Shown here piece by piece: positions 5,539-20,784 of a stretch of 30,605 nt of DNA (positions are counted from its first letter, which is position 1; every line of letters begins with the position of its first letter). Made by a program: the position numbers and the translations under genes. This DNA comes from a virus: positions 1-30,605 of the IMG/VR virus record IMGVR_UViG_3300021061_000045. One strand, written 5' to 3'. The notes below the pieces were generated by a model. That model was not told where the DNA came from. It was given only the letters and a program-made list of their open reading frames with translations, and did not search any database.

Positions 5539-7361
5539 CAGCCCGCCTTCTTGTACGACGCCGCGGTTTCAGCCATCGACGTGTACGTGTTGATGATGTT
5601 CTCGACGGTCTTCGCGTCGATGCCCGCCTTGGCGAGTTCGATCGCGAGCGCCTGCATCTGCGCCTGGAACCGCTGGCGGCCGCCCTCGCTTTCAAGATCA
5701 AGCGCCATGCCCTCGAAGCCCTTGAGCGTGCCTGCCTGACCAGAGCCAAGGTTCAAGCCGCCAGTGATGAGGTCGCGGAAGTACCCGCTCTGCTCGTCGC
5801 TGGCCCCGCCGGCCATCTGCGCCAACAGCCGGTCGCGGTCGAGTCCAAGACGGTCGGCCAGCTCAGACACCCGCGCGCGGAAGTCGGCCTGCTGGCGCTG
5901 TTCGCCCGACAGCCCCATAGTCACGTCGTACTCGTAGTCGCGGTCGCGCTCGGCCTCGTCCGAGGCGCGATACGCCGCATCGCCAGCCGTGCGGAAGCGG
6001 TCGAGCCCCGACCGCGTCGAGGCGTCCGCGAGCCTGTCCAGCCGCTCGCGGTTGCGCAGGTCCACGTCGTCAGTCGCCGACGCTGCGCCAAAGTACTGGT
6101 TCTCTCGACCCTGCGTGAGCGCGTCCAGCGCGCGCTGGTTCTCGAGCAGGAAGTTCGCCGACCGGTAGGCAGCCTCGTCAGCCTGGCCGAGCCGCTGCGT
6201 CTTGATGTTCTCCATGCCCAGGCGCCCATGCAGCGCCCTGTTGAGCTTGTCCATCTCGACCTCGTCGCCAGACCGCGCCGCGTCCCCGAAGTACCGCTCA
6301 CGCTCCATCCGCGACGTGTCCGCCAGGCGCGCGAAGTCACCGCCTTGGCCCTGCCGCGCAAGTTGCATCTCCTGCGCAGACCGCGCAAGTCCGCCCATCT
6401 CGAGCCACTGCTTGGCCCGGAGTCCCTGCAACTGCTCGCCGTACTGGCGCTGAGCCAGGCCCGATGCGTAGCCGCCCGTGGCCGCCGCCCGACGGTCCAG
6501 GTCTTCCTGCATCTTCTTCGCAAAGTAGTCGTTGGCGCTGTTCAGGTTGCCCAACTGCTCGTCGTAGAACTTCTCGGCCGCGCCCTTCTCCTGGACCGCC
6601 GGCATCATCTTGCGGAAGTAGCCGCCGGCCTCCGATTGCTCGTTGGCCAGCGTCCGGGCCCGAGACGTCGCCTCGTCGGTTCGCTGGCGCATGCTGCGGA
6701 GTTGGTCGATCTCGGGCATGAAGATCGCCTGCCGCGCCTCCATCTTGCGCTGCTCGGCGTAATCCTTCAGCGGGTTGCCCATCGTCCCGCGCTCCCGCAA
6801 GCGATCGGACCAGCCGTCGCCGCCCGACTTGTACCGCTGCAGGTATTCGCTCATCCCCGACGGACCCGCCTGGTACTTCGTCTGCCCGTAGCGCGTCTCG
6901 ACGTCGCTCGCCTGGTCCATCCGGCCGGCGTTCTGGCCGTACCAGTCGCGGTAGTTGGTGACGCTCTTTCTGTTGGCGGCGAGCCCCGCCATCGGCCCAG
7001 GCTTGTTGCCGTACGGGTCATCGAGCAGGCGCGTGCTGTTGAAGTTCGGGCCGGCGTTGCTGTACTTCCGGTACAGATCCGCCATGTACGTCGGCCGGTT
7101 CAGCTCATAGCTGCGCAGGTAGTTCTGCGCTGGGCCGTAGAAGCCCAAGGCGCGCTCACCGGCGGCGCGCCCCTTGTCGGCCAGGCCGCCGTAATAGCCC
7201 TGCTGCTCATTGCCCAGGCGCCGAGCGCCCTTCGCAGCGTCGCCGTAGCCTTCCTTGGCATTCTCGCCCGCCCAGATGTGCGGCACGGCGCCCCAGGTCA
7301 TGGGACCACCTGCGATCCCAGCGCCGACCTTGCCCCATTTGCGCCAATTGAAGCGAGCCAT
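5538..7361 (-). CDS. Large helical internal virion / ejection-type protein
   Basis: A 607-residue protein. The N-terminus (MARFNWRKWGKVGAGIAGGP) is a basic amphipathic or membrane-active-looking segment, followed by Tyr/Gly/Asn-rich sequence to about 190. A long charged helical region of about 190-540 has many Arg, Gln, Asp and Ala residues, and the C-terminal 60 residues are helical. Such composition and the position next to two similar proteins suggest a podovirus ejection or core protein. The ATG overlaps the gp10-like gene stop as TAATG and follows GGAGGAGGCATA, a very strong ribosome-binding site. No lytic transglycosylase catalytic motif was recognised. Confidence 0.55.
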   Translation of the reverse strand: MARFNWRKWGKVGAGIAGGPMTWGAVPHIWAGENAKEGYGDAAKGARRLGNEQQGYYGGLADKGRAAGERALGFYGPAQNYLRSYELNRPTYMADLYRKYSNAGPNFNSTRLLDDPYGNKPGPMAGLAANRKSVTNYRDWYGQNAGRMDQASDVETRYGQTKYQAGPSGMSEYLQRYKSGGDGWSDRLRERGTMGNPLKDYAEQRKMEARQAIFMPEIDQLRSMRQRTDEATSRARTLANEQSEAGGYFRKMMPAVQEKGAAEKFYDEQLGNLNSANDYFAKKMQEDLDRRAAATGGYASGLAQRQYGEQLQGLRAKQWLEMGGLARSAQEMQLARQGQGGDFARLADTSRMERERYFGDAARSGDEVEMDKLNRALHGRLGMENIKTQRLGQADEAAYRSANFLLENQRALDALTQGRENQYFGAASATDDVDLRNRERLDRLADASTRSGLDRFRTAGDAAYRASDEAERDRDYEYDVTMGLSGEQRQQADFRARVSELADRLGLDRDRLLAQMAGGASDEQSGYFRDLITGGLNLGSGQAGTLKGFEGMALDLESEGGRQRFQAQMQALAIELAKAGIDAKTVENIINTYTSMAETAASYKKAG

Positions 7362-8797
7362 TATGCCTCCTCCATCGTATCAAACGACTCGATCACTTTG
7401 GCGATTGAAACCAGCGCATTGGACGAGCCGTAAATCTCCCATTGCCTATGGAGGTACGGTTTCCCGATGCTCCATTTCTCGACCGTTGCAAACGGGCGGG
7501 TCGACGTCGTCCCAAGGCCCACTTGCAGCGGCCCCGAGAACGTCCCCAGGTCATCCCGCCAGCGCATCAGGAAGAACGGCTCAGCGGTGTCCGTAGACTC
7601 CCCCCGCCTGACGTGAAACTGCACCTTCTGTGTCGCCTTTGTGCTGGCGTTCTCGTGGTCGACGAACCCCGAACGGGCCAGCCAGTGAATGGCCGTCCCC
7701 GAGTCGGTGTACGTGCTCAGGTCCAGCTTGGCGATGGTCCCGTCGGACAGCCCGACGAGGTTGACGTTCTTCTCGGGCCAATACACATGACTCTGGATCG
7801 TCAACCCCGCCCAGTTGCCGGATGACCAGCCACGCCACTCCGACCAGACTTTGGTCGTCATGTCGTACGCGAATGCCCGACCGTCCGTCGGGAACACCCA
7901 CAGCAGCAGATCGCGATCGTCGAGACGAACCCGCGAGCCCCAGCAGTCGGTGACGCTCGCGAGTTCAGCAACGAGGCGGTCCGTGGCTGGCGTGCCGATG
8001 GCCTCATAGGCCCGGCCATCCGACATGACGAACCGACGCCGGCTGTCGAGCCAGGCGAACTGCTCGTCGTGGCGGATGATGCTGTGCCGGGCCAGGCACC
8101 CAAGGTCCATATTGTTGATCGGCGCGAACACCTCGTTCGGGTCGGGTCCGTAGACCTGCAGAGTCTCGCTGCCCCAGACGAACAGTTCGCGCGCCGAGTC
8201 CCTGATGGCTACGATCTTGTCCGGGCGCGCCTCGGCCTCGCGGAAGTCCTCCGACGTCGTCCACGTCTCGTGGTTTCCGTCTCCCGGTGCCGACCAGTAG
8301 AAGAGCCCGCCCTCTCCCGCCTCCAGCGCCACCACTCGCTGGGTCATGACCAGTACATCGGTCACGAGCGCTGGAGGCGAGCCGCCCAGGAGCGCCGCCA
8401 AGCCGCTGCCGGTGTACTTCAGCATCGCCCCGCCGCCGGCCAGGATCACCTTGGTCCGAGTCGTCGTGATGCGCGGGCGCTCGGCGCCCTCGAGCTGCGT
8501 AGCCGTCGTGGAGTCGGACAGCGCCTCGACGTTCTGGTACGACGTCCAGGCGTACAGCTTCCGCGTGCCCGTCGAACTCTGCGTGACGTAGACCAGCTTG
8601 TTTTGCCAAACCGTCATGGCTACGACAGGGTTGGCGTCAGGCACGGTCGGCGGGAACTCGTCCCAGGCTGCAATGCCTGGACGTAGGCGCATCCCTCCCG
8701 CAGCGTCAACCAGCAGGTTGACGAGCGGCCCCCGCGACCCGGACAACTCGTCCAGGCCGGAATCGGGGCCGTTGAAAGGGATGGGCGCCGCGTCCAT
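7361..8797 (-). CDS. P22 gp10-like tail hub / packaged-DNA stabilisation protein
   Basis: A 478-residue protein resembling the P22 gp10 family, which closes the portal channel after packaging and forms the tail hub. Recognisable family features are the N-terminal peptide with NLLVDAAGGMRLRPGI (residues about 20-45), the RELFVWGSETLQVYGPDP block near 190-210, the CLARHSIIRHDEQFAWLDS block, and the FAYDMTTKVWSEWRGW repeat-like beta blade. The start ATG at 8795-8797 overlaps the tailspike stop as TAATG. A longer in-frame ATG at 8881 would overlap the tailspike by 85 bases and its extra residues look like noise. It sits with the gp4-like gene and tailspike, as expected for a P22-type tail. Confidence 0.75.
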   Translation of the reverse strand: MDAAPIPFNGPDSGLDELSGSRGPLVNLLVDAAGGMRLRPGIAAWDEFPPTVPDANPVVAMTVWQNKLVYVTQSSTGTRKLYAWTSYQNVEALSDSTTATQLEGAERPRITTTRTKVILAGGGAMLKYTGSGLAALLGGSPPALVTDVLVMTQRVVALEAGEGGLFYWSAPGDGNHETWTTSEDFREAEARPDKIVAIRDSARELFVWGSETLQVYGPDPNEVFAPINNMDLGCLARHSIIRHDEQFAWLDSRRRFVMSDGRAYEAIGTPATDRLVAELASVTDCWGSRVRLDDRDLLLWVFPTDGRAFAYDMTTKVWSEWRGWSSGNWAGLTIQSHVYWPEKNVNLVGLSDGTIAKLDLSTYTDSGTAIHWLARSGFVDHENASTKATQKVQFHVRRGESTDTAEPFFLMRWRDDLGTFSGPLQVGLGTTSTRPFATVEKWSIGKPYLHRQWEIYGSSNALVSIAKVIESFDTMEEA

Positions 8798-10443
8798 TAC
8801 CAGATATCGTTGCTCCCGGCGTTGTTCGGATAGCTGAAGGTCGCGCCGCCGTCTTCCTTGCCGATCTGAGTAGACAACCACTTGGACGAACTAGCCCGCC
8901 ACGTGAACCGGATGGCGACGTTCCCCGAAAAGTTCGAGGTCGGAAGATAGCCGAAGTACTGCGCATTCCATGTGAGCGCGACGCCCGCGCCGCTCTGGTT
9001 CGAGAGGACCAGTAGCATCGTCTGGCCGTCATGAAGCCCCGTCGTCGACGTGGCGCCGATGGTCAGAGCCGCAGTCGTCCGGCATACCTGCAGCTCGCCC
9101 AGCGATGGGTCGGGCGTGAAGGTGCCGCCGGCCTGTGCGGACCGGTTGCGCTTGAATACGTTACAGCGGGGCTGCGACTGCCACGCCCCGCCGTACTCGG
9201 CAAGCGTCCGCGTGCTGAAACTGTTCATCTCGTCGATGACGTCGGTCGCGCTGGCATTTGTCGTAAAGTCGGTCGTGTTCGTACCGACACGGCAGTTGAT
9301 GCAACCCGACCGAGCGACGGCCCCGACGCTGAAACCGGTAGTGCAGGCTCCTGCGATCGAATCGCGGGCGATGGTGTCGTCCGCGGTGAAGCTGAATCCG
9401 GTGCCGGTCGACGCGACGACCATACAGTCACGCGCATGGGCATGCTGTCCGCCCAGGACGAAACCGGTGCCAGTAGCAGCCGCGGCGATGCAGTGGTCGG
9501 CTAGCCCGTGCTTGCCCAGCGTGAACCCGACGCCGGCCGAGTTGCCGTCCGTCGAGTCGACCCGGCAATGGTGTAGCTCGCCGCGCTGGACCGTGGATGT
9601 CCAGGTGAAGCCCTTGCGGTGAAGCGACGTCACCACACGCTGACACACGACTCCGTCCCCCGATGTAACCGAGATGGCTGATCCCGTTGACGTGGTCGAG
9701 TGGGTGAGCGCCAGGTCGGAAATGACCATGTTGGCTTCGCCAGTGATGTTCACGGTCAGCAGCGTAATGGCCGCGCCAGTGCCCTTGATCTTGCTGGCCG
9801 TGGCGCCAAGCCCCATCAGCCAGATTCCGGCCGTGCTAGTCGACAGCCCCGCCGAACACGCGAACGTGCCCTTAGGCAGCAGACCGACGCCGCCGCCCTT
9901 GGCCGCGAGCCGGTCGAGAAGCTTCTGGAGCGCAACGTAGTCGTCGGCCGTCCCGTCTCCCTTGGCCACCTCGCCGTTGGCACCCTTGACATCGAACACC
10001 GAGACGAACCGCTCGGCGAGGACGTCGCGCAGAAGACGCGCGTTACCGCCGGTTGCCTCAAGGTACTTGAAGTCAGTCCCCATGAACGACGACAGAGCGG
10101 AAGTGAGCGCCGCATTGAGCGTCGTGGTCCCGCCCGCGCCCTGGCTGCCGTTCGATAGGGTGCCGGTAAGAAAGTTGTTGGCGACCTCGACCAACTCAGC
10201 GCGGCCGCCCTCGATGAAGCGGTCAACCTCCACGCCCGCGGCCGTCTTGACCACCACTTCGACGACCTGCTTTACCCAGAACTTCGCGCGCCCCGACGAG
10301 TTGAGCACCTGCTGCGCGGTCGTCAGCGTCGACGTCGCGGCGTAGTTGCTGTAGGCAGTGACCCGGCTGGTCGAGTTCGGCTCGTACAGCTCGTACGTGC
10401 CGGACGGCGCCTCGGGGTAGTAGATCCGGACGGTATAGGCCAT
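8797..10443 (-). CDS. Tailspike / tail fibre with pectate-lyase-type beta-helix
   Basis: A 548-residue protein. The N-terminal 120 residues look like a particle-binding and spacer part (MAYTVRIYYPEAPSGTYELY). Residues about 148-195 match the entry of pectate-lyase-3-type beta-helices: FDVKGANGEVAKGDGTADDY followed by ALQKLLDRLAAKGGGVGLLP and KGTF. Short repeating turns with buried Cys/Val and Asn/Thr/Asp follow to about 400 (HCIAAAATGTGFVLGG and similar), consistent with a right-handed parallel beta-helix. The last 100 residues form a separate beta domain. It probably binds or degrades host surface polysaccharide. The active-site residues cannot be identified. Start ATG overlaps the gp4-like stop as TGATG. 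Confidence 0.75.
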   Translation of the reverse strand: MAYTVRIYYPEAPSGTYELYEPNSTSRVTAYSNYAATSTLTTAQQVLNSSGRAKFWVKQVVEVVVKTAAGVEVDRFIEGGRAELVEVANNFLTGTLSNGSQGAGGTTTLNAALTSALSSFMGTDFKYLEATGGNARLLRDVLAERFVSVFDVKGANGEVAKGDGTADDYVALQKLLDRLAAKGGGVGLLPKGTFACSAGLSTSTAGIWLMGLGATASKIKGTGAAITLLTVNITGEANMVISDLALTHSTTSTGSAISVTSGDGVVCQRVVTSLHRKGFTWTSTVQRGELHHCRVDSTDGNSAGVGFTLGKHGLADHCIAAAATGTGFVLGGQHAHARDCMVVASTGTGFSFTADDTIARDSIAGACTTGFSVGAVARSGCINCRVGTNTTDFTTNASATDVIDEMNSFSTRTLAEYGGAWQSQPRCNVFKRNRSAQAGGTFTPDPSLGELQVCRTTAALTIGATSTTGLHDGQTMLLVLSNQSGAGVALTWNAQYFGYLPTSNFSGNVAIRFTWRASSSKWLSTQIGKEDGGATFSYPNNAGSNDIW

Positions 10444-11120
10444 CAGTAATCCCCCACGCAGAAGCGGATGCGGCCACGTTCGGTCTCATCCAGCATGGCT
10501 TTGTCCTTGTCCGGGTTGACGACCTTCATCAGGTACGCCGCGTGATTCAGCATCCCGGCCTTGACGGCGAACTCGTGGGCAAGCAGGTACGTGATCGTCT
10601 TGAGCCACTTGGGCTCGAGGTCCAGCGTCACGTTGCCCGTATCGGTGTCCCGCAGCTTGCGGTACTTCTGGTAGATGAAGGTGTACGCAGCGTCGCTCTT
10701 AACCGGAAAATTGACCGTGACGGTCCCGGCCGACGTTTTCTCTACGTAGAACTCCAGCGGGCGCGCGATTGTGGTCTTTGACGACCGGCGAAAGTAGTCG
10801 TCTCGGCTGATGCGCGTCGCCTCGCTGTCCACGTTCGACGAATCGCGCAGGTTAGCCACCGGACCGACGTCAACGGTATCGGCGTCGGCCGTAAAGCCCG
10901 TGTCGTTCGCCGCGACGGCCTTGGACACGCGCTCGACGGCCCGAACGATCAACCCCTCTTTCTGCAGGTCCAGGATGATGAGTTGCAGCGCCCGGGCGCC
11001 AAAAGCGATCTGATCGGCGTCCGCCGTGTGCCCGTCGTGGAGCTGGCGCGCGAGGCTCGCCGCCTGCGAGATGATCTGATCTCGCTGCATGTCGAACGTG
11101 GCCGTAGTGGAGACAGCCAT
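10443..11120 (-). CDS. P22 gp4-like head-to-tail adaptor
   Basis: A 225-residue protein. The N-terminal helices (about 8-60: IISQAASLARQLHDGHTADA, ALQLIILDLQKEGL) correspond to the gp4-type start in which a helical pair carries an L-x-L-x-D/E-L motif. The middle part resembles podovirus adaptor proteins: TRISRDDYFRRSSKTTIARP, then LEFYVEK, then VNFPVKSDAAYTFIYQKY. The C-terminus has PKWLKTITYLLAHEFAVKAG, the family's last helix. Such proteins form the ring under the portal and seal packaged DNA. The gene lies immediately upstream of the tailspike and hub genes. A TAATG overlap with 11120-12745 and GGGGAGG upstream of that junction show tight coupling. Confidence 0.65.
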   Translation of the reverse strand: MAVSTTATFDMQRDQIISQAASLARQLHDGHTADADQIAFGARALQLIILDLQKEGLIVRAVERVSKAVAANDTGFTADADTVDVGPVANLRDSSNVDSEATRISRDDYFRRSSKTTIARPLEFYVEKTSAGTVTVNFPVKSDAAYTFIYQKYRKLRDTDTGNVTLDLEPKWLKTITYLLAHEFAVKAGMLNHAAYLMKVVNPDKDKAMLDETERGRIRFCVGDY

Positions 11121-12745
11121 TATTCAAGCCTCCCCATGAACGCCTTTGGCTCTTGCCGGTAGAACGACCCGACCAACGCGGCATTTGTGACCGTCTCGAC
11201 GCGCGTCAGATTCGTGTTCGTGTACGGCTGCAGCGACAGCCCCGACTGGCCGAGCGTATTCAGTCGCAGGAACCGCTGCGGCAACGGGTCCTTGGTCGTC
11301 GGCTGAATGCTGCTCACCGCCTCCTTGGCCGTGCGAAACGCGGCGTTGTTCCTCGCGGACTGGATCGGAGCCAGCAACCCCGCGGCCGCCCAGTCGTACA
11401 GGGTCGATCCGTTCTTCTTCGTCGCCGCCAGCGGCGCCCCCTCTCGCACCAAAAGAACCGTTGACGGCGCCAGGGTCGGGTCGTAGTCGCCCTTGAGCCC
11501 TCGCCACAGTTGCGTCTGCTCGGTGTCGAGCGGGCTCGTGGCCTCGTAGTCCAACTCGTAGTCACTGTTGCTGGAGAACGTCATCAGCCAATCCCAGATG
11601 GACGTCACCTGAGACGACAGGCCATCCACCTCGTAGAGAGCGCGCAGGGCGGTCGACCAGTTGCGAGCGCCGATCGTGGTACCCGTGGCCAGCGGCCCAT
11701 TCAAGTACTCCCAGGACCCGCGGCCCGTCGGGTAGCTTTGAAAGAACGACCTCGGCGTCGTCGCCGAGAAGCCCTGGATGTTCGCGCCGTCGTCCGCCGA
11801 ATATTGCGCGGTGGACCAAAACGCCTTCGCCTCGCCGATGGCCGTGGACACCAGGGTCGCGCGGCTCGCGTTGAAAGGGACCGTGATGGTCGACGATCCG
11901 ATCGTCTCGTCACCAGCAATGTTCTTGAACAGCGTCAGGAACCAGACACCGATGAGGTCGCCAGGGAAGTACTTGTGGTCCCAGGTCCCGCCCGTCGTGA
12001 TGCTGAAGGTCCACGCGCCCCAGTGCTTCGGCACCAGCCCAGCCGCATCGGCCGAGCTGAAACCAGAAGAGAGCAGGTCGCCGCATTGGGCGCTGCGCAG
12101 GAACCACGCGGTGGCACGCGCAGCCGCCAGGTGCTTCGCCTTGCCGTGGACCTGATAGGCGCGCAGCAGAGCAATGCCCGCCAGCGAGCTCGTGGACGTG
12201 AAGTACGACGATCCGATGGAGAACGCACCCCACTGCAGGGCGTCGTCCGTATACGTCGTCTTGCCTGGCCCGCCGACTTGGTTATCGTAGAGCCAGTCGG
12301 CCAGCTCGAGCAGCTTCGCCTTCGCGCGCGTGATCCAGTGCGGCGGCCGCTGGTTCTCCGCGATGAGGTCGTACAGGTACCAGCAGGCTAGCGCCGCGTC
12401 CTGGACGCTCGTCGTTCCCGTGCGGGCTCCGCTCACCGTCTGGTCTACAGACCCATACGGCGCAGTGTCGCAGATGAAGTTGAAGAGATACCCTTCCTCT
12501 GCCTCCCACGTATCGCGCCCGTCGCGCGGCTTCGGCGATGGTACTGGCCGATCGCTGCGTGGCGTCCGCCGGGCGTTGATGCGGTCGAGTTCGGGAATGG
12601 TCCGCATGCCCTTGTGGTCGCTGCAGATCCAAACGCCATCCACGCCCTTGACGTCGAACTGGACGGGCGCCGTCTTCCACGATCCGCAAATGTCGCAGAC
12701 CCGCCGCCAGGTGCCTGGGCGGTACTCCTGGATGAGCACCGCCAT
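11120..12745 (-). CDS. Zinc-ribbon protein with helical-repeat (toroid-like) domain, unknown role
   Basis: A 541-residue protein. Residues 17-44 contain a CxxC-x20-CxxH pattern (C17, C20, C41, H44), likely a small zinc site. A Pro/Arg-rich linker (about 55-75) follows. From about 110 on, pairs of hydrophobic helices alternate with aromatic loops (DAALACWYLYDLIAENQRPP, ALQWGAFSIGSSYFTSTSSL, GDLIGVWFLTLFKNIAG, STALRALYEVDGL). This suggests an alpha/alpha-toroid fold like that of many polysaccharide lyases and six-hairpin glycosidases. The fold call is pattern-based and uncertain. It lies between capsid beta-helix genes and the gp4-like adaptor, so it is probably virion-associated, perhaps acting on host surface glycans. 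Confidence 0.5.
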   Translation of the reverse strand: MAVLIQEYRPGTWRRVCDICGSWKTAPVQFDVKGVDGVWICSDHKGMRTIPELDRINARRTPRSDRPVPSPKPRDGRDTWEAEEGYLFNFICDTAPYGSVDQTVSGARTGTTSVQDAALACWYLYDLIAENQRPPHWITRAKAKLLELADWLYDNQVGGPGKTTYTDDALQWGAFSIGSSYFTSTSSLAGIALLRAYQVHGKAKHLAAARATAWFLRSAQCGDLLSSGFSSADAAGLVPKHWGAWTFSITTGGTWDHKYFPGDLIGVWFLTLFKNIAGDETIGSSTITVPFNASRATLVSTAIGEAKAFWSTAQYSADDGANIQGFSATTPRSFFQSYPTGRGSWEYLNGPLATGTTIGARNWSTALRALYEVDGLSSQVTSIWDWLMTFSSNSDYELDYEATSPLDTEQTQLWRGLKGDYDPTLAPSTVLLVREGAPLAATKKNGSTLYDWAAAGLLAPIQSARNNAAFRTAKEAVSSIQPTTKDPLPQRFLRLNTLGQSGLSLQPYTNTNLTRVETVTNAALVGSFYRQEPKAFMGRLE

Positions 12746-13566
12746 CAGATGATCCTTGCGCTCCCGCTCTTGTTGCGAAGCAGGAAGGTAACCGGCGTGC
12801 TCGACCCCGTATCGATGTCTGAGTCATTCAGCAGGTCGATATTCAGCATCAATAGCCGCGTCACCGCTGCGCTGCACTTGATGACGTAGGGATTCGACCA
12901 GCCAGACGACCCGCCGTCGAACACCACTGCGTCGGCGTCGTTCGGGCCGCCGATCACTAGGTTGTTCATCGCGTTGCTGACCAAGATCCCGGTCGCCGGC
13001 TGACTCGACACGCTGCCGCTCGTGGACGAGAACGTCGTCCCCTTCACCAGCGCCTCACCAGCTCCCGTGATGTATTCAATGCACTCGGCGGTATCGTTCG
13101 TGCCGCACTCGAACAAGCAGTCTTCAACCCGCGTGCCTACCGAAGCGATGCGGATGCGACTGTTGGGCGCCGTGGTCGACGCTGGGAAGTACAGGTTGCA
13201 GAACCACACCCCCGCGGCCGTGACGTCGAACATATCGATAGCACCGCCGCAGATGAACTGCGGGCGGCTCGACCCGGTCCCCTCGCCGTACACGTGAATC
13301 CCGGCCTTGTTGAAGGTCTGCGCAGCGGTCAACGTTTCCGTATGACCTGACAGGCAGACGATGATGTCACCGGCCGAGGCGTTGGTATGCGCCTGGGCAA
13401 GCGAGGCGAGTGGCCGGATGCGCTCCTTACCGCGTGGCGAGGCAGCATCCGATCCGTCCTTGTGGACGTACCAGATCGCACCCGTCATGGCGAGCGGGCT
13501 GCGGGTCGTTACTCCGTAGCCCGATGTGCCGCCGATGCCGTTGAGGTATGCGGGTAGGGTGGCCAT
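12745..13566 (-). CDS. Beta-helix capsid-associated protein, copy 2
   Basis: A 273-residue protein related to the product of 13651-14583. Both share a block GD-x-(I/V)-VCL-x-GH-(T/S)-E (here GDIIVCLSGHTETLTAA, residues about 68-84), and further on G-x-G-(T/S)-x-RP-x-F (GEGTGSSRPQF). Downstream the sequence is a run of short beta-strands and turns (RVEDCLFECG, ATGILVSNAMNNLVIGGPND) as in right-handed beta-helices. Position next to the major capsid protein suggests a head decoration or fibre. The product is about 37 residues shorter than its neighbour. ATG follows GGAGAGTGA. An unprocessed enzymatic tailspike is less likely given the short length. Confidence 0.6.
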   Translation of the reverse strand: MATLPAYLNGIGGTSGYGVTTRSPLAMTGAIWYVHKDGSDAASPRGKERIRPLASLAQAHTNASAGDIIVCLSGHTETLTAAQTFNKAGIHVYGEGTGSSRPQFICGGAIDMFDVTAAGVWFCNLYFPASTTAPNSRIRIASVGTRVEDCLFECGTNDTAECIEYITGAGEALVKGTTFSSTSGSVSSQPATGILVSNAMNNLVIGGPNDADAVVFDGGSSGWSNPYVIKCSAAVTRLLMLNIDLLNDSDIDTGSSTPVTFLLRNKSGSARII

Positions 13567-13650
13567 TCACTCTCCGATAGGCGCCCCTCGTTCCCTGAGA
13601 GCCGCCAAGGAGAGGTTGAACGGCCCCCAAGGCCCGAGAGGCAAACTTGC

Positions 13651-14583
13651 TTACGTCGCCGCTGCAGCCGGCGCGAGAACCGCCGACTTCTTCGCCTCGT
13701 CGATCGAGTAGTTCTCTCCGCACACGACGAGCGCCCCAGCGCCGAACGTGATGCCCTGGGCAGACGCCGTGCCGTCGTTCTTGGTGCCGAGGTAGTTCCG
13801 CACCACGATGCCGTCGCAGGCGACGTTGTCGAACACGATGCACGCCGTGGACGACGTGTGCGTGTTGTAGATGATGTTGTCGCGGATGACCATCTCGAGC
13901 GCCGCCACGGTGACGTGGATGAGCCCGTTGGCAGCCGTAGCCGACGCCACCATTTCGTTGTCGAAGATGCGGAGTCGTGACGGCACCGTCCCGCCGACCA
14001 CCTTGATCCCGTCGGTCACGTTGTGCGTGGCCGTGCCGTAGACCCAGTTGCGGGAGATGGTGCAGTCGGTCGCCGCCGAACCCACCTCGATCGCGATAGT
14101 GGCCTTGTTGCTCGCCCCGCTCGCGACCTGGATGTGGTTGTCGTCCAGCGTGACGCCAGCGCCGGTGATGTCGATGGCCTTCGTGACGCCGTTGGCGCCC
14201 TCGAGACGGAGCCGAAGCCCCGCCACGATGGTGTTGGCGTTGTTGAGCGCCCACTGGCTGCCGGCCGCCGTCCAACGGAACGTCGGGCGGTTCGTGCCGT
14301 GGCCGATGCCGATGATGGCCACCCCGTCGTCCAGGTTGTCCAGCATCGTCGCGTCCGCGACGCTCTCCGAGTGGCCCGGCAGGCAGACGACCGCGTCACC
14401 TGGCCCTAGGTCCGCGTCGGCCAGAGCCGCTGCCAGCGTTGCGTACGGCGTGTCGAACTCGCCATAGCCCGCCAGCGTGCCAGAGGCATTGCCGACGAAC
14501 TTGACGTCGCCGATGACGCCGTACTTCGCAAGCGCCTGCTCGACGATAGGCCGGAGCCCGATGTAGTTCGTGGTGGTTCCCAT
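13651..14583 (-). CDS. Beta-helix capsid-associated protein, copy 1
   Basis: A 310-residue protein. A helical N-terminal part (TNYIGLRPIVEQALAKYGVI) is followed by a beta-helix cap (PYATLAAALADADLGPGDAV, then VCLPGHSESV at about 68-77). A long repeat of short strands follows (ITGAGVTLDDNHIQV, TDCTISRNWVYGT, LRIFDNEMVA, MVIRDNIIYNTHT), each turn roughly 20-25 residues with I/V at the core and N/D in turns. This is the signature of a right-handed parallel beta-helix. Its place directly downstream of the major capsid gene implies a head decoration or capsid-fibre protein. An 84-base gap separates it from the shorter paralogue; I see only a ribosome-binding site there. Confidence 0.65.
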   Translation of the reverse strand: MGTTTNYIGLRPIVEQALAKYGVIGDVKFVGNASGTLAGYGEFDTPYATLAAALADADLGPGDAVVCLPGHSESVADATMLDNLDDGVAIIGIGHGTNRPTFRWTAAGSQWALNNANTIVAGLRLRLEGANGVTKAIDITGAGVTLDDNHIQVASGASNKATIAIEVGSAATDCTISRNWVYGTATHNVTDGIKVVGGTVPSRLRIFDNEMVASATAANGLIHVTVAALEMVIRDNIIYNTHTSSTACIVFDNVACDGIVVRNYLGTKNDGTASAQGITFGAGALVVCGENYSIDEAKKSAVLAPAAAAT

Positions 14584-14595
14584 GGTCGCCCCCGG

Positions 14596-15501
14596 CTAGG
14601 CGTTGACGCCGATGAGCCCGCGCGGATCGAAGCAATCCATCGCGAACATCTCGTAGCCGTCGTAGACCTTGTTGCGCTGGCTCTCGACCGAGTACTCCTT
14701 GAACTCGGGCCGAGCGGTCCAGATGCAGTGCAGGCCGTGCTTGTGGTTCGTCACCACGAACCAGTTGGTGACCGACGCGAAGAACGGGTTGCCCTGTACC
14801 CGCACCTTGCCCTTGAGGGTGTTGTAGGTGTGATTGGCCGTGTCGTTCTGCAGCGGCGACATCGTGATCCGCTCGGCCGTCTCGATCTTGTCCGAGTGGA
14901 CCAGCAGGATTTCCGGCTGGACGCCCATCGGGTAGCCGTTGCCACCGGGCATCGTCCGGCAGAGCTGCATGATCTGCTCGAGCGAGCTGTGAGACAGCGC
15001 CGCATCCGCGCTCGGGCGGTTCGCAAACGTACCGCCCTTGGCCAGCTTGTGAGCCGTCGAGCAGAGCGCCACGCCGTCCGTGGTCGCCACCGCCGCGTTC
15101 GCGTCGAACGCATCGGCGAAGACCTGGGCCGCCTTGATCTCCTGGGCCAGTCGCAGCGCTTCCGCGATGCTCTCCGACCCCATGATGGCCTCCCGGTACT
15201 TGTTGAACCGGATGGCCTCCTCGGAGACCGGCATCATGACGGCGTAAGCGGTCTGGTAAATCCGCTTGCCGTACCCCTGCTGGATGACGTCGACCGCCAT
15301 TTGGGCGCCCTGCTTCTTCTCGGGCGCCGGTCCCAGCCCCGCATACTCCTGGATGTCCTCGAACAGGTCCTTGGAGTTGATCTCCTTGAACCCGCAGTCC
15401 TTCCAGATGGGCTTTTTCGCGGTCTCGTTGCGGAACGCGACGAGCAGCGTCTCCTTGAGAGCCGCGTTGATGTTGCCTGTGAGAACGACCGTGTTAGCCA
15501 T
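14596..15501 (-). CDS. Major capsid protein, HK97 fold
   Basis: A 301-residue protein with the layout of HK97-fold capsid proteins close to the Mu gpT/podovirus-like group. It has an N-terminal helix (NINAALKETLLVAFRNETAK), an E-loop-type region (about 48-80, KQGAQMAVDVIQQGYGKRIY), and the segment DGVALCSTAHKLAKGGTFAN with NRPSADAALSHSSLEQIM, which closely resembles capsid proteins that read GxxLFSTxHP and then LSxAxLE. Then comes the P-domain part with PEILLVHSDKIETAERI and a C-terminal aromatic beta block. The ATG follows AGAGGAGCTGAACC. It is flanked by decoration-type and beta-helix genes. No N-terminal prohead-cleavage site or protease gene is evident nearby. Confidence 0.75.
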   Translation of the reverse strand: MANTVVLTGNINAALKETLLVAFRNETAKKPIWKDCGFKEINSKDLFEDIQEYAGLGPAPEKKQGAQMAVDVIQQGYGKRIYQTAYAVMMPVSEEAIRFNKYREAIMGSESIAEALRLAQEIKAAQVFADAFDANAAVATTDGVALCSTAHKLAKGGTFANRPSADAALSHSSLEQIMQLCRTMPGGNGYPMGVQPEILLVHSDKIETAERITMSPLQNDTANHTYNTLKGKVRVQGNPFFASVTNWFVVTNHKHGLHCIWTARPEFKEYSVESQRNKVYDGYEMFAMDCFDPRGLIGVNA

Positions 15502-15513
15502 GGTTCAGCTCCT

Positions 15514-16125
15514 CTAGACGCCAGTGGTGGAGAAGGTGCCAGGCCACGCATCCGTCTCGTTGGCGACAACGAGGTACTTGGCCCGAGTGACCGTCACGTT
15601 GTTCGGCGTCGCGTCCGAGATGCCGATGATTCGCCAGCCGGCCGCGCCCGTACCGTGGGTCGAGATGTCGAGCACCGCAGCGCTGCGGCCGCTCACCGTG
15701 TCACCGGTGCCGGTCGCATGGTCGCAGTTCTCCCAGATGAGCTCGCGCGCCGCCGCAACCGTCGTGATGGACGTGCCCTCGTCGGCGTCGACCTCGAAGA
15801 TGGTGTAGGGCGTGGCGGCGATGCAGTGGGCCTGCGACCGCAGGTAGTCCTGCGTGTAGGTCGTAGACGCCGGGATGTGATTGCTCTCCTCGAGCTTCCC
15901 GCTCTTGTTGTACTGGCAGCGCGCAACGACACCCCAGATCGCCTGGCCAGCAGCCGCGACGTCTACCGAGCCATCGCTGACGCAGTTGACCGGGTCGCCG
16001 CAAAACACCGCCGTGCCATATGCACTCGCAACCTGGCGCTCGAGCAGTCGAGGGACGATGTTCTCGCCGAACACGCTCCCCCAGTAACGGAAGCCGCCGA
16101 TTGTCTTGTTCGTGAATCCAGCCAT
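15514..16125 (-). CDS. Head decoration / cement-type protein
   Basis: A 203-residue protein encoded immediately upstream of the major capsid gene. Its N-terminus (MAGFTNKTIGGFRYWGSVFG) is followed by beta-rich Gly/Ala/Thr segments such as DGSVDVAAAGQAIWGVVARC, the style of phage head-stabilising proteins that carry a G-x-I-x-G-V turn. Four Cys residues are present, which is unusual for such proteins. The ATG lies 8 bases after GGGAGGAG. Position between the AT-hook protein/scaffold and the capsid protein supports a head role. The precise location on the capsid is an inference. Confidence 0.55.
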   Translation of the reverse strand: MAGFTNKTIGGFRYWGSVFGENIVPRLLERQVASAYGTAVFCGDPVNCVSDGSVDVAAAGQAIWGVVARCQYNKSGKLEESNHIPASTTYTQDYLRSQAHCIAATPYTIFEVDADEGTSITTVAAARELIWENCDHATGTGDTVSGRSAAVLDISTHGTGAAGWRIIGISDATPNNVTVTRAKYLVVANETDAWPGTFSTTGV

Positions 16126-17647: not shown

Positions 17648-18163
17648 CTAGTAGACGGGAATGAACACGTACTGGCCCGGGTCGTCGATGTTGTCGCGCA
17701 CGTAGATGCGCCGGAGTTTGCCCGCGCGAATGCGCTCCTTGAGGTCCTCGCCGCCGAATAGGCCGTTGTTGGTCAACTGCAACACCTTTTTCGGCGCGTC
17801 CGCCTTCTCGTCCATGGCGTACTCCTTCTCTTCTCCCTCGAAGGAGCCCCAGTAGACGATGTCGCCGACAAAGATACCCTGCGACCGCAACTCCTCACGA
17901 GCCGCCAGGCCAGCTGCGAGCAGAAGGCCGTGATTCTCGGGCCACACTTCCTCCTGGGCGATGTCCGGGATGTGAAGGCCGCTCGCCGTCATGGTCCGCT
18001 TGGCCTTTGGCCGGAAGCGGTAGACGGCGATCCGGTTGAACACCGGCTCATACGGCGGCTCGGGCGCGTCGTGCTCCTTCACCCGCTCTGCTAGGCGCTT
18101 TTCCGCCTCGCTCTCAAGCGCGCGCCACGCCGCCTCTTCCTTGGCGAGGTCACGGATGATCAC
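17648..18163 (-). CDS. GroES-like (Cpn10) co-chaperonin-type protein
   Basis: The product has 171 residues from GTG 18163. After a charged helix (about 1-45), residues about 47-115 match a GroES-type barrel: PVFNRIAVYRFRPKAKRT, ASGLHIPDIAQ (mobile-loop position), HGLLLAAGL, GIFVGDIVYWGSFEGEEKEY (the GroES VGDxVxF segment). A further 50 residues extend the C-terminus, longer than bacterial GroES (about 97). Phage GroES-like proteins such as T4 Gp31 help fold the capsid protein with host GroEL, and this gene lies next to the scaffold. The GTG overlaps the preceding stop as GTGA; an in-frame ATG at 18214 would overlap it by 54 bases and is less likely. Confidence 0.5.
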   Translation of the reverse strand: MIIRDLAKEEAAWRALESEAEKRLAERVKEHDAPEPPYEPVFNRIAVYRFRPKAKRTMTASGLHIPDIAQEEVWPENHGLLLAAGLAAREELRSQGIFVGDIVYWGSFEGEEKEYAMDEKADAPKKVLQLTNNGLFGGEDLKERIRAGKLRRIYVRDNIDDPGQYVFIPVY

Positions 18164-18453
18164 TTGCCGTTGCCCTTCAGCGACTCTTTGATCTCTCGGA
18201 TTCTGCTTTCCCATTCTTCTTTGCCCTCTCCCTTACGTGGAATCGTGTCGATGAGCCCCAGCATGTCGCGCCACGCGCGGCACGCCCCAGCCCGCCAGAT
18301 GCGCTGCTTTTCGTCCGGCGCGAACTCTGAGTAGCGCTGGTTGCCGCCGATCTCAGCCTCGATGAACCTCCGCATCGCCTGCGTGACATCGGAGCACCAC
18401 CAGGCGAGCAGCTTGTCCGCCGGCTGGTTCCAAAACTCGCCGCCGTCGCTCAT
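18160..18453 (-). CDS. Hypothetical helical protein
   Basis: A 97-residue protein rich in Trp, Arg and Glu (DKLLAWWCSDVTQAMRRFIE, AGACRAWRDMLGLID), predicted mostly helical, without membrane segment. The ATG at 18451-18453 overlaps the previous gene as ATGA and its stop overlaps the GTG of the GroES-like gene as GTGA, so it is translationally coupled on both sides. It belongs to the head/packaging operon between portal and scaffold. No family is recognised. Confidence 0.55.
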   Translation of the reverse strand: MSDGGEFWNQPADKLLAWWCSDVTQAMRRFIEAEIGGNQRYSEFAPDEKQRIWRAGACRAWRDMLGLIDTIPRKGEGKEEWESRIREIKESLKGNGK

Positions 18454-18683
18454 CGGCCGAGCTCCTCGAGCATTTCCGCGATGCTTCGGATCCCAACTGC
18501 CATGCCGCGGTTGTGGACCGTGCTTTCTCGGCTACCTTCCGGCGAGCAGGAGATGAGCGCCGCCTGGTCGCAGGCATTCGCCATCTCATGAAGGTAGGCC
18601 GCCAGGCTCTGGCCCAGCGGGCTCGCCGCTAACAGCTTCTTCTGCTCCAGGTCCAGGTTCTGCCATTTCGCTCGGCGGTCCAT
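18450..18683 (-). CDS. Small helical protein overlapping the portal 3' end
   Basis: A 77-residue protein (MDRRAKWQNLDLEQKKLLAA, LGQSLAAYLHEMANACDQA, VGIRSIAEMLEELGR), clearly alpha-helical. The ATG at 18681-18683 has AAGGAGAG 8-9 bases upstream, a strong ribosome-binding site, so the gene overlaps the last 98 bases of the portal gene in another frame. A shorter version starting at the in-frame ATG at 18584, just beyond the portal stop, lacks a good ribosome-binding site. Its stop overlaps the next start as ATGA. Function unknown. Confidence 0.55.
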   Translation of the reverse strand: MDRRAKWQNLDLEQKKLLAASPLGQSLAAYLHEMANACDQAALISCSPEGSRESTVHNRGMAVGIRSIAEMLEELGR

Positions 18684-20784
18684 TCGGGGTCTCTCCTTGT
18701 GGCGCTCCCGGCGGGAGCATGGGCGGCGGCGCAATGGGCGCCTTTTCGATGATGGCGGCTGCCTTGTCGGAGCCGATCGAACGCATGAGGTCCGCGGTCA
18801 GCGTCCGCCACAGCGCGGACATCGCCTCGGGCGGGAGCATCAACGCTTCGGGCGGAATCTGGCTCATCGACTGGATCGCGCGCATGGCGGCGCGTTCCTT
18901 CTGCGGCTGACTGGCCAGGTTCGGGTCAGCCGTGAACGTGACATCGAAGTCCTCGACGTAGTCCAGGCGCCCGACGGTATTGGGCTCGACCGTCCCCTCT
19001 TCCTGAACGTAGAAGTACTCGAGGTCGTCGAGCGTCTGGCTGTTGATGTACGCCAGCGTCTTCACCTCGTTCGACCGGGCCCGGTTGTACCGCTCGGCCA
19101 TGGTCGAGAGGTTCTGCATGGCCATGGACGCTCGGATTTCGGTCGTCGTCGCGGTCTCTCGGTCGGACACCTCGCCCGAGAAGATTTCGGGAGCGCCAAG
19201 GCTCTCCGCGTTCTGCTGAAACAACTCCAGGAACTTGAATCCCTGCGGCGGCGGCGCTGGAAACTGGAACTGATGGAACGCCTTGGACAGCAACTCGGGC
19301 GGGAGCGGCGACTCCACGCCCTCGCCAAGGCGCAACTGGATGTCGCCTCGCTGCAGGGCCGCGTTGCGGCTGTACATGAACGTCGGTTTGATGTTCAGCG
19401 TCGCCAGGCTGATCATTGCCGACGCCCAAGCGTCCGCCGCGACGTTGTCCCCCTCGAGGAGGAAGCCCAGCCCCAGTCCGTAGATGCCCTCGGGGTTGGG
19501 AACGCAGATGTAGTGCGTGTAGCGGTTCCACGCGATCTTACGGACCGGCGCCGGCTCGGGTGGAGGCGTCGGGCGGGGCGGGGGAGGCGGCAAATCCTCT
19601 CCCGACAGGGGCGGGATGAGCACCACGTTGCCGAACTCGTCGACGTCCTCGCGCGGCTGCGACAGATACTCGACTGAAGCGCGCCAGGCTTGCTCATCCT
19701 GCGCGTACATGGCCTCCTGCGACTGGATCTGAGCCTCGCGGAGGTCGTTTTCGCGGTTGTAGCGGGCGCGATCGTCGGGATCGTCGCGCTCCCGAAGCGA
19801 AAGCCGCAAAAGCGTCTCCGTTTGCAGGTCGACCACCGCCGTGACCGGCCGGCGGCGCGGCTGACCGGGCAGTTTCAGCAAGAAATCCTGCTCGAGCAGC
19901 TCGCGCGGGGCGTCCGGGTCGTCTTCCTGCGGCTTGACCCCCTGAAACGACGTCACCAGGGCCGTCACCGGCTTGCCGGAGTGGCCGTTATCGGCCGTTC
20001 CGCCTCCCGCGGCCTTGCCCCAGTCGTTTCCGACGCGCGCCCGACCGTCCTCGCCAACGTCCTGGTACAGGTTCGTGACGTTGGCGTAGTAACCGTCGGC
20101 TTCGAGTTCCTCAAGTTCGGGCCGGTACTTGTACAGACGGCGAGTGATGCGCGGAACGTCGGCCAGATCGGGCCTGTCCGACTGGAACTTGTACGGCAGG
20201 ATGATGTCGTCGGTGCGGCAGAACTCGAAACACGGCCGCTTGCCGAGCGGATCGTAGTACCAGACCGAAAACGCCGAGCCGTAGAGCAGCGTTTGCATCA
20301 ACCCGCGGTCGTGGGCGGGTATGTACTCGGGAATCTTGCGCCGAACCTGGAAGTTGATGTGCCGGGAGAGGCGCTTGGTGCGCATCTCGTCGTTCGGCTC
20401 GGTCGGAAGGGCGCCGTAGATGTCACCCGTCGACGGGAAAAGCTGGCTATACAGCTTGGCGTGAAACAGCAGCGTCGATCGCGCGATGAGCGGCAGGTGA
20501 ATCTGGGCTAGATTCTCGTGGCCGGCGGGCTTCTCGCCCATCAGTCCAACGAACATCTTGAGCCACGACGCGCGCCGCTCCCGAAACTCCTTGCTACCGT
20601 CCCAATCCAACTTGGCCGTGAAGACGACCTGGCGGGCGACCTTCTTCGCCTCTTCGGGCGGAAGGCTCGCTGCGATGTTCGCCGCGTTTTCGTAGTCCGG
20701 CGGGGGCGGCTGCGCAGACTGCTCGTCAGTCATGGCCGCGCCTGGCGGGGTGGTCGGATCGATCTGGGAGAGTTCTTCGGCCAT
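18586..20784 (-). CDS. Portal protein
   Basis: A 732-residue protein of the large podovirus portal type. It forms the dodecameric ring for DNA entry and exit. Visible features are QIHLPLIARSTLLFHAKLYS with QLFPST (about 93-118), the YGSAFSVWYYDP turn near 165-180 found in P22/SPP1-type portals, the IYGLGLGFLLEGDNVAADAW block (about 430-455), and the ATTTEIRASMAMQNLSTMAE block (about 550-570), the helix before the crown. The C-terminal 60 residues are Pro/Gly-rich. A Pro-rich insertion (DLPPPPPRPTPPPEPAP) lies near 396-412. ATG follows TAGGAGCCCAA; an ATG at 20733 is less likely. It lies directly downstream of terL. Confidence 0.8.
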   Translation of the reverse strand: MAEELSQIDPTTPPGAAMTDEQSAQPPPPDYENAANIAASLPPEEAKKVARQVVFTAKLDWDGSKEFRERRASWLKMFVGLMGEKPAGHENLAQIHLPLIARSTLLFHAKLYSQLFPSTGDIYGALPTEPNDEMRTKRLSRHINFQVRRKIPEYIPAHDRGLMQTLLYGSAFSVWYYDPLGKRPCFEFCRTDDIILPYKFQSDRPDLADVPRITRRLYKYRPELEELEADGYYANVTNLYQDVGEDGRARVGNDWGKAAGGGTADNGHSGKPVTALVTSFQGVKPQEDDPDAPRELLEQDFLLKLPGQPRRRPVTAVVDLQTETLLRLSLRERDDPDDRARYNRENDLREAQIQSQEAMYAQDEQAWRASVEYLSQPREDVDEFGNVVLIPPLSGEDLPPPPPRPTPPPEPAPVRKIAWNRYTHYICVPNPEGIYGLGLGFLLEGDNVAADAWASAMISLATLNIKPTFMYSRNAALQRGDIQLRLGEGVESPLPPELLSKAFHQFQFPAPPPQGFKFLELFQQNAESLGAPEIFSGEVSDRETATTTEIRASMAMQNLSTMAERYNRARSNEVKTLAYINSQTLDDLEYFYVQEEGTVEPNTVGRLDYVEDFDVTFTADPNLASQPQKERAAMRAIQSMSQIPPEALMLPPEAMSALWRTLTADLMRSIGSDKAAAIIEKAPIAPPPMLPPGAPQGETPNGPPSEMAEPGPGAEEAVSGEPAGPEPGGLPS

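Follow-up and report, generated by a model that had tools for sequence, protein, structure and literature searches.

A beta-helix protein family encoded next to capsid genes in the head modules of uncultivated phages, a candidate for capsid decoration

We analysed a pair of adjacent genes, here called A and B, in the IMG/VR virus record IMGVR_UViG_3300021061_000045; the window is the whole stretch of 30,605 bases, in which the structural genes all lie on the minus strand. Protein A (310 amino acids (aa); 13651..14583, minus strand) and protein B (273 aa; 12745..13566, minus strand) are open reading frames (ORFs) called with ATG starts and separated by 84 bp. Only 12 bp lie between A and the end of the gene for the major capsid protein (MCP; 301 aa; 14596..15501, minus strand), which was identified by weak family matches (PF25209, 3e-5; phrog_371, 1e-7) together with profile matches to solved capsid proteins (family profile to 8rkc, E 1.8e-9). 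The initial annotation, made from the DNA letters without database searches, had described two tandem frames beside the capsid gene, and both were found in place on the minus strand. Read along that strand, the order is terminase, portal, GroES-like protein, probable scaffold, two small genes, MCP, A and B; genes for a protein of 541 aa, the presumed adaptor (225 aa), the pectate-lyase-like spike, and a tail protein of the Hc3 type come next. The roles of scaffold and adaptor are presumed from gene position and order alone. The A and B genes recur with 100% identity in two longer contigs (35.5 and 36.2 kb).

The two proteins share short motifs near their N-termini. The first, GD-x-(I/V)-VCL-x-GH-(S/T)-E, is exactly as initially proposed, reading GDAVVCLPGHSE in A (residues 62–73; codons at 14365..14400, minus strand) and GDIIVCLSGHTE in B. 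The second is present in both, as GHGTNRPTF in A and GTGSSRPQF in B, with its spacing corrected by one residue to G-x-G-x-x-RP-x-F. We rejected the shared motif alone as proof of kinship because many pectate-lyase-like helices open with GD-x-(I/V) ... PG-x-x-E. The kinship of A and B rests instead on sequence and profile comparisons: BLASTP aligned them with E 1e-8 (27% identity over 129 aa), their Smith-Waterman score of 110 was reached by none of 1000 shuffles under either of two shuffle schemes (shuffle maximum 75), and their family profiles matched each other at 99.9% with E 7e-31 over 225 columns. As a control, the profile of these phages' own spike family was compared with those of A (E 7e-9) and B (E 6e-9), and both matches were far weaker than the one between A and B. 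A and B are thus confirmed to be truly related, with a similarity beyond chance.

Both proteins are confidently predicted to be right-handed parallel beta-helices, a fold that had initially been guessed by eye and that the AlphaFold2 single-chain models bore out. The model of A (55 sequences) reached a predicted local distance difference test score (pLDDT) of 90.2 and a predicted template-modelling score (pTM) of 0.89, and that of B (21 sequences) a pLDDT of 92.6 and a pTM of 0.90. Structural comparison using VIA-align, in which rows less than one Z unit apart were treated as tied, matched A with the alginate lyase 6kfn (Z 22.9, 247 residues, root-mean-square deviation (r.m.s.d.) 3.1) and the Pam1 tailspike 7eea (Z 20.8), and B with the Fri1 tailspike 6c72 (Z 21.9, 214 residues, r.m.s.d. 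3.6) and the Pam1 tailspike (Z 21.3). The top matches, with Z-scores of about 21–23, are polysaccharide lyases and phage tailspikes. One close match was found in the Foldseek viral library (A0A1B1IT72, TM 0.81/0.84). In both models, the strands of the first helix coil start at about residues 27–31, and neither protein has an N-terminal anchoring domain; the spike of their own phage has about 160 residues ahead of its Pfam helix match. A and B of the window matched no Pfam family, and Pfam was reached by three of 55 A-family members (PF13229) and one of 21 B-family members (PF12708). None of the PHROG, Pfam, and NCBIfam models covers A or B as a family, and a sequence search of the PDB using the A and B profiles returned nothing firm.

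The family of A is linked with capsid genes far beyond the window. Scans of viral contigs identified 77 loci by the A query and 13 by the B query; after 33 of 108 loci were dropped as near-duplicates, together with a copy of the window (L017), 74 loci with an A- or B-like gene remained. Of these, 56 contain a recognisable MCP of the window's type, every time with an A/B-type gene downstream on the same strand, within 30 bp of the MCP in 35 loci and within 200 bp in 52. This linkage emerged even though the query was A, not the MCP. The remaining 18 loci lack either an MCP of the window's type or the part of the contig where it would lie. Among the ten upstream genes tested there, eight encode classical HK97 capsids (PF05065), one belongs to PF03864, and one was left unassigned; none to three genes separate these other capsids from A. 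Six genes downstream of A were tested in loci without the window-type MCP, and five belong to the head-tail adaptor families phrog_442 and phrog_40, the sixth being a weak match to phrog_195. With HK97-type capsids upstream and adaptors downstream, the A family therefore sits inside the head module, and it does so in phages whose capsids belong to three or more families. The linkage of A to the capsid gene, initially noted for the window, is upheld over a much wider range.

Relatives are scarce in other collections. Four single-protein queries, which distant relatives may escape, found one relative among 50,697 phage records, the environmental genome MW202647.1, in which the MCP is followed after 18 bp by A, an independent instance of the same order. 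Scanning the genomes of bacteria and archaea yielded two loci only, in metagenome-assembled genomes of Planctomycetaceae and Chloroflexi; the Chloroflexi locus and the viral contig behind L042, both of 14,699 bases, may be the same contig. When viral contigs were scanned with the MCP as a single protein, nothing but copies of this virus turned up.

The portal served as an independent anchor for sampling. Among the best 80 of 162 confirmed portal loci, 51 show the MCP, and in 40 the contig runs on for 1.2 kb or more beyond it; in 29 of these 40, the MCP is followed by an A/B-type gene within 300 bp. Ten of these 29 contigs were already known from the A/B scans, and the new contigs alone gave 19 of 30 (a count from contig names). 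Because the portal profile was built from A-bearing phages, these rates apply to their kin and not to all phages. Where A was not detected, the slot after the MCP holds other genes, for example proteins of 133–144 aa in L172, L175, L184, and L186. The isolated relatives CRP-901 and DSL-LC04 have a 151-aa protein in this slot, annotated as a cement protein in DSL-LC04, and in Caulobacter phage RW the slot holds a gene that appeared nuclease-like by eye.

Protein B has a different distribution. It was found in 22 loci (21 full-length and one cut-off), all of which also have A. The order in 16 of the 22 is A, presumed adaptor, B, with the spike following in 15 of the 16, whereas B stands directly after A in the other six, which form the window's small clade. 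Six loci that show both adaptor and spike have A without B (L011, L024, L026, L037, L038, and L041), and no B was seen with the more remote relatives of A, whose capsids are of other types. The position of B in the 16 loci, behind the presumed adaptor and usually right before the tailspike, suggests the tail as its place; B is more likely a component of the neck or tail, near the adaptor and the tailspike. In a quick tree, from which ORFs shorter than 200 or longer than 700 aa and three spike ORFs were left out, a single branch separates the 75 rows of A from the 21 rows of B with full support (Shimodaira-Hasegawa-like approximate likelihood ratio test, 100); a duplication, if there was one, therefore predates these phages. 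The nearest relative of the window's B is the B of another phage (50% identity), compared with 27% over the aligned part for A of its own phage. A recent tandem duplication of the window pair was rejected on the basis of this quick tree and the identities. The initial idea of a duplicated head-fibre or decoration pair thus holds for the true kinship and for the linkage of A to the capsid gene, not for a recent duplication nor for the place of B, which is usually behind the adaptor.

Conservation within A is concentrated at one end. The best-conserved region is the N-terminal cap (residues 61–120), and the later coils are variable. G70, H71, E73, and G92 are invariant in the 55 rows of the A family, and the polar residues conserved at 90% or more, D63, H71, and E73, all lie in the cap. 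In the A-family alignment, the later coils show no conserved acidic or basic cluster resembling an active site; their conserved polar residues are mostly Asn, which is typical of coil turns in such helices. A conserved base carrying a variable shaft fits a surface protein.

Taken together, we favour, with a probability of roughly 0.55, the interpretation that A is a structural protein of the head, decorating the capsid surface or forming a short fibre on it, and that B is an old paralogue more likely located at the neck or tail. The analysis shows the sequences, their kinship, the predicted fold, and the order of the genes; presence in the virion is deduced from that order, and attachment to the capsid or tail, contact with glycans, and the formation of trimers are inferred as well. 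A would be a free-standing pectate-lyase-like beta-helix without a tailspike-type anchoring domain, made right after the MCP and bound to the capsid exterior, either as decoration or as a short fibre. The conserved coils at its N-terminus might form a fixed base, with the variable coils that follow as an exposed face in contact with glycans of the host or the environment. A might take the place that a short cement protein with a beta-sandwich fold has in related phages, and B would be an old paralogue retained in one branch of these phages, more likely on the neck or tail side.

Several observations weigh against this interpretation. Gene order is not location, and a gene in this slot could equally encode an enzyme, a spike, or an assembly factor. 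The good fold matches are enzymes or tailspike proteins, as are, in whole or in part, most known beta-helices of 300 aa, and the invariant His/Glu pair could be functional. A was not detected in 11 of the 40 portal-anchored loci. The 203-aa gene before the MCP may already encode a decoration protein, judging from a weak match, and B adjoins A in the window rather than the spike. A further point against it is that a single relative was found among the 50,697 phage records.

The gene order of Pam1 is portal, scaffolding, capsid, cement, and then adaptor, needle head, and spike (PMC9382816), and the Pam1 cement protein is immunoglobulin (Ig)-like and trimeric (PMC9698820). A shares with cement of this type the slot right after the MCP, as seen in DSL-LC04, and the external position on the head that we propose for it. 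It differs in that cement proteins are short (151 aa in DSL-LC04) and Ig-like in Pam1, whereas A is a predicted beta-helix of 310 aa. The head fibre gp8.5 of phi29 is an accessory protein of the head surface with a proposed role in host contact, according to a 2020 review (PMC7602432); it consists of a beta-tulip base and an alpha-helical supercoil, unlike the beta-helix of A. The tailspike depolymerases Fri1 gp49 and Pam1 gp17 have the right-handed beta-helix in common with A and B, which differ in their size of only 273–310 aa, the lack of an N-terminal anchor, and, for A, the linkage to the capsid gene. The relative in MW202647.1 (UOF79913.1) is annotated as "lacto-N-biosidase", a name given by remote similarity only; it belongs to the same family as A and is encoded directly after the MCP.

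The right-handed beta-helix is known in phages chiefly from tailspikes. The folds of decoration proteins listed in the accessible part of the 2020 review are the beta-tulip, OB, beta-tadpole, Ig-like, and knotted alpha-helix folds (PMC7602432), and the predicted fold of A is outside that list. No description of a beta-helix decoration protein was found in the literature searched, either in the accessible text of this review or since. If A is in the virion, the repertoire of capsid-decorating folds would gain the beta-helix, and a recurrent, unassigned capsid-adjacent gene of uncultivated phages, uncaptured as a family by PHROGs, Pfam, and NCBIfam, would have a named product and serve annotators as a marker of head modules. 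It would also raise the question of whether spike-like, glycan-facing surfaces might be spread all over phage heads.

The oligomeric state of A might be reflected in a natural fusion. A single frame of 896 aa on the plus strand (L065:6323-9013; on a second contig, L058:672-3362) contains three complete A domains of about 290 aa each; the signature recurs at residues 71, 360, and 652, and the closest single-domain relative of this protein is L052. The fusion, the sole hint of a trimer, suggests a unit of three; end-to-end stacking would also fit. A further and more speculative possibility, which we regard as tentative, is that a widespread, almost wholly uncultivated group of tailed phages has heads coated with beta-helix trimers of the pectate-lyase fold, the entire capsid being a multivalent glycan-binding, perhaps glycan-cutting, surface, with this fusion as a natural single-chain trimer. 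A scan of 20 whole phage records using the A profile, which missed the B of G002 and G003, found one A in each and at most one further match (B), the exceptions being the three-domain record and one record with two matches in the same frame.

Among the other explanations, the one that best withstands the evidence holds that A and B are both small spikes or depolymerases on the neck or tail and that the proximity to the capsid gene is incidental. Tailspikes and similar proteins of phages (Fri1, Pam1, and Geobacillus E2 ORF18) do stand among the top solved matches, and B usually adjoins the adaptor and the spike. We nevertheless consider it unlikely because A stays with the MCP and not with the spike, is flanked in other phages by an HK97 capsid gene and a head-tail adaptor gene, and, like B, lacks the N-terminal domain found on the spike of its own phage. 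An enzymatic role, in which A on the head or freed at lysis cuts polysaccharide of the host or of a biofilm, could account for the fold shared with polysaccharide lyases, the GenBank name of the annotated relative, and the lyase-like spike encoded in the same cluster; it appears rather doubtful, as A matches no enzyme family of Pfam or NCBIfam, few of the 55 members match any family, and the later coils carry no conserved acidic or basic cluster. The virion role of A and B is deduced from genes, which leaves room for moron-like or assembly genes in a structural operon that are not virion parts, a proposal we find very improbable because morons are expected to be patchy, whereas this slot is kept over very divergent phages with three capsid families. 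Least probable of all are obligatory hetero-trimers of A and B in one decoration complex, a strict form of the hetero-trimers that the initial annotation had suggested as a possibility. In their favour are the adjacent genes in the window and its clade and the presence of an A in every locus with B (22 of 22). Against them, A occurs without B in the six loci having adaptor and spike, so that hetero-trimers are not required; distant A relatives show no B, the termini of A and B differ, and the adaptor gene stands between them in 16 of the 22 loci.

Other arrangements of A genes were also observed. Tandem sister copies of A are found in L079:5898-7819 (plus strand), and two A genes from different branches in L039:1453-3354 (plus strand). 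L092:5886-8368 (plus strand) also has two A genes, the second extended at its C-terminus by about 200 aa, and A relatives with long C-terminal additions (474–631 aa in total) occur in L090:6803-8698, L072:5100-6707, and L074:5971-7395 (plus strand).

The neighbouring genes, all on the minus strand, complete the cluster. The 203-aa gene preceding the MCP (15514..16125) belongs to phrog_37556 (9e-11), a family without an assigned function, and stands at the same place in relatives; its product has a weak profile match to the decoration protein gp26 of phage G (E 0.028) and might be an ordinary decoration protein. Encoded between B and the presumed adaptor gene, the 541-aa protein (11120..12745) matched no Pfam family. 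It has an N-terminal CxxC region, to which many relatives match only via a separate CxxC protein of about 85–135 aa; in the window's group, a long C-terminal part seems to have been joined onto this region, and that part, helical by eye, is perhaps a glycosidase-like toroid. The presumed head-tail adaptor (225 aa; 10443..11120), so called from gene order, matches phrog_12985, again a family without an assigned function, and is conserved in relatives between A and B or after B. Beyond it lie the pectate-lyase-like tailspike candidate (548 aa; 8797..10443), which matches PF12708 from residue 160 (6.9e-10) and has its own N-terminal domain, and the tail protein of the head-closure (Hc3) type (506 aa; 7361..8881; phrog_578, 1.4e-29). 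The portal that served as the sampling anchor (732 aa; 18586..20784) matches phrog_332 (7.8e-8). Between the portal and the scaffold, 17648-18214 encodes a GroES-like (Cpn10) protein (PF00166, 1.6e-4), a gene that keeps its place in many relatives and in the isolated phages HTVC023P, CRP-901, RW, and DSL-LC04, as if folding of the capsid needed a co-chaperonin from the phage.

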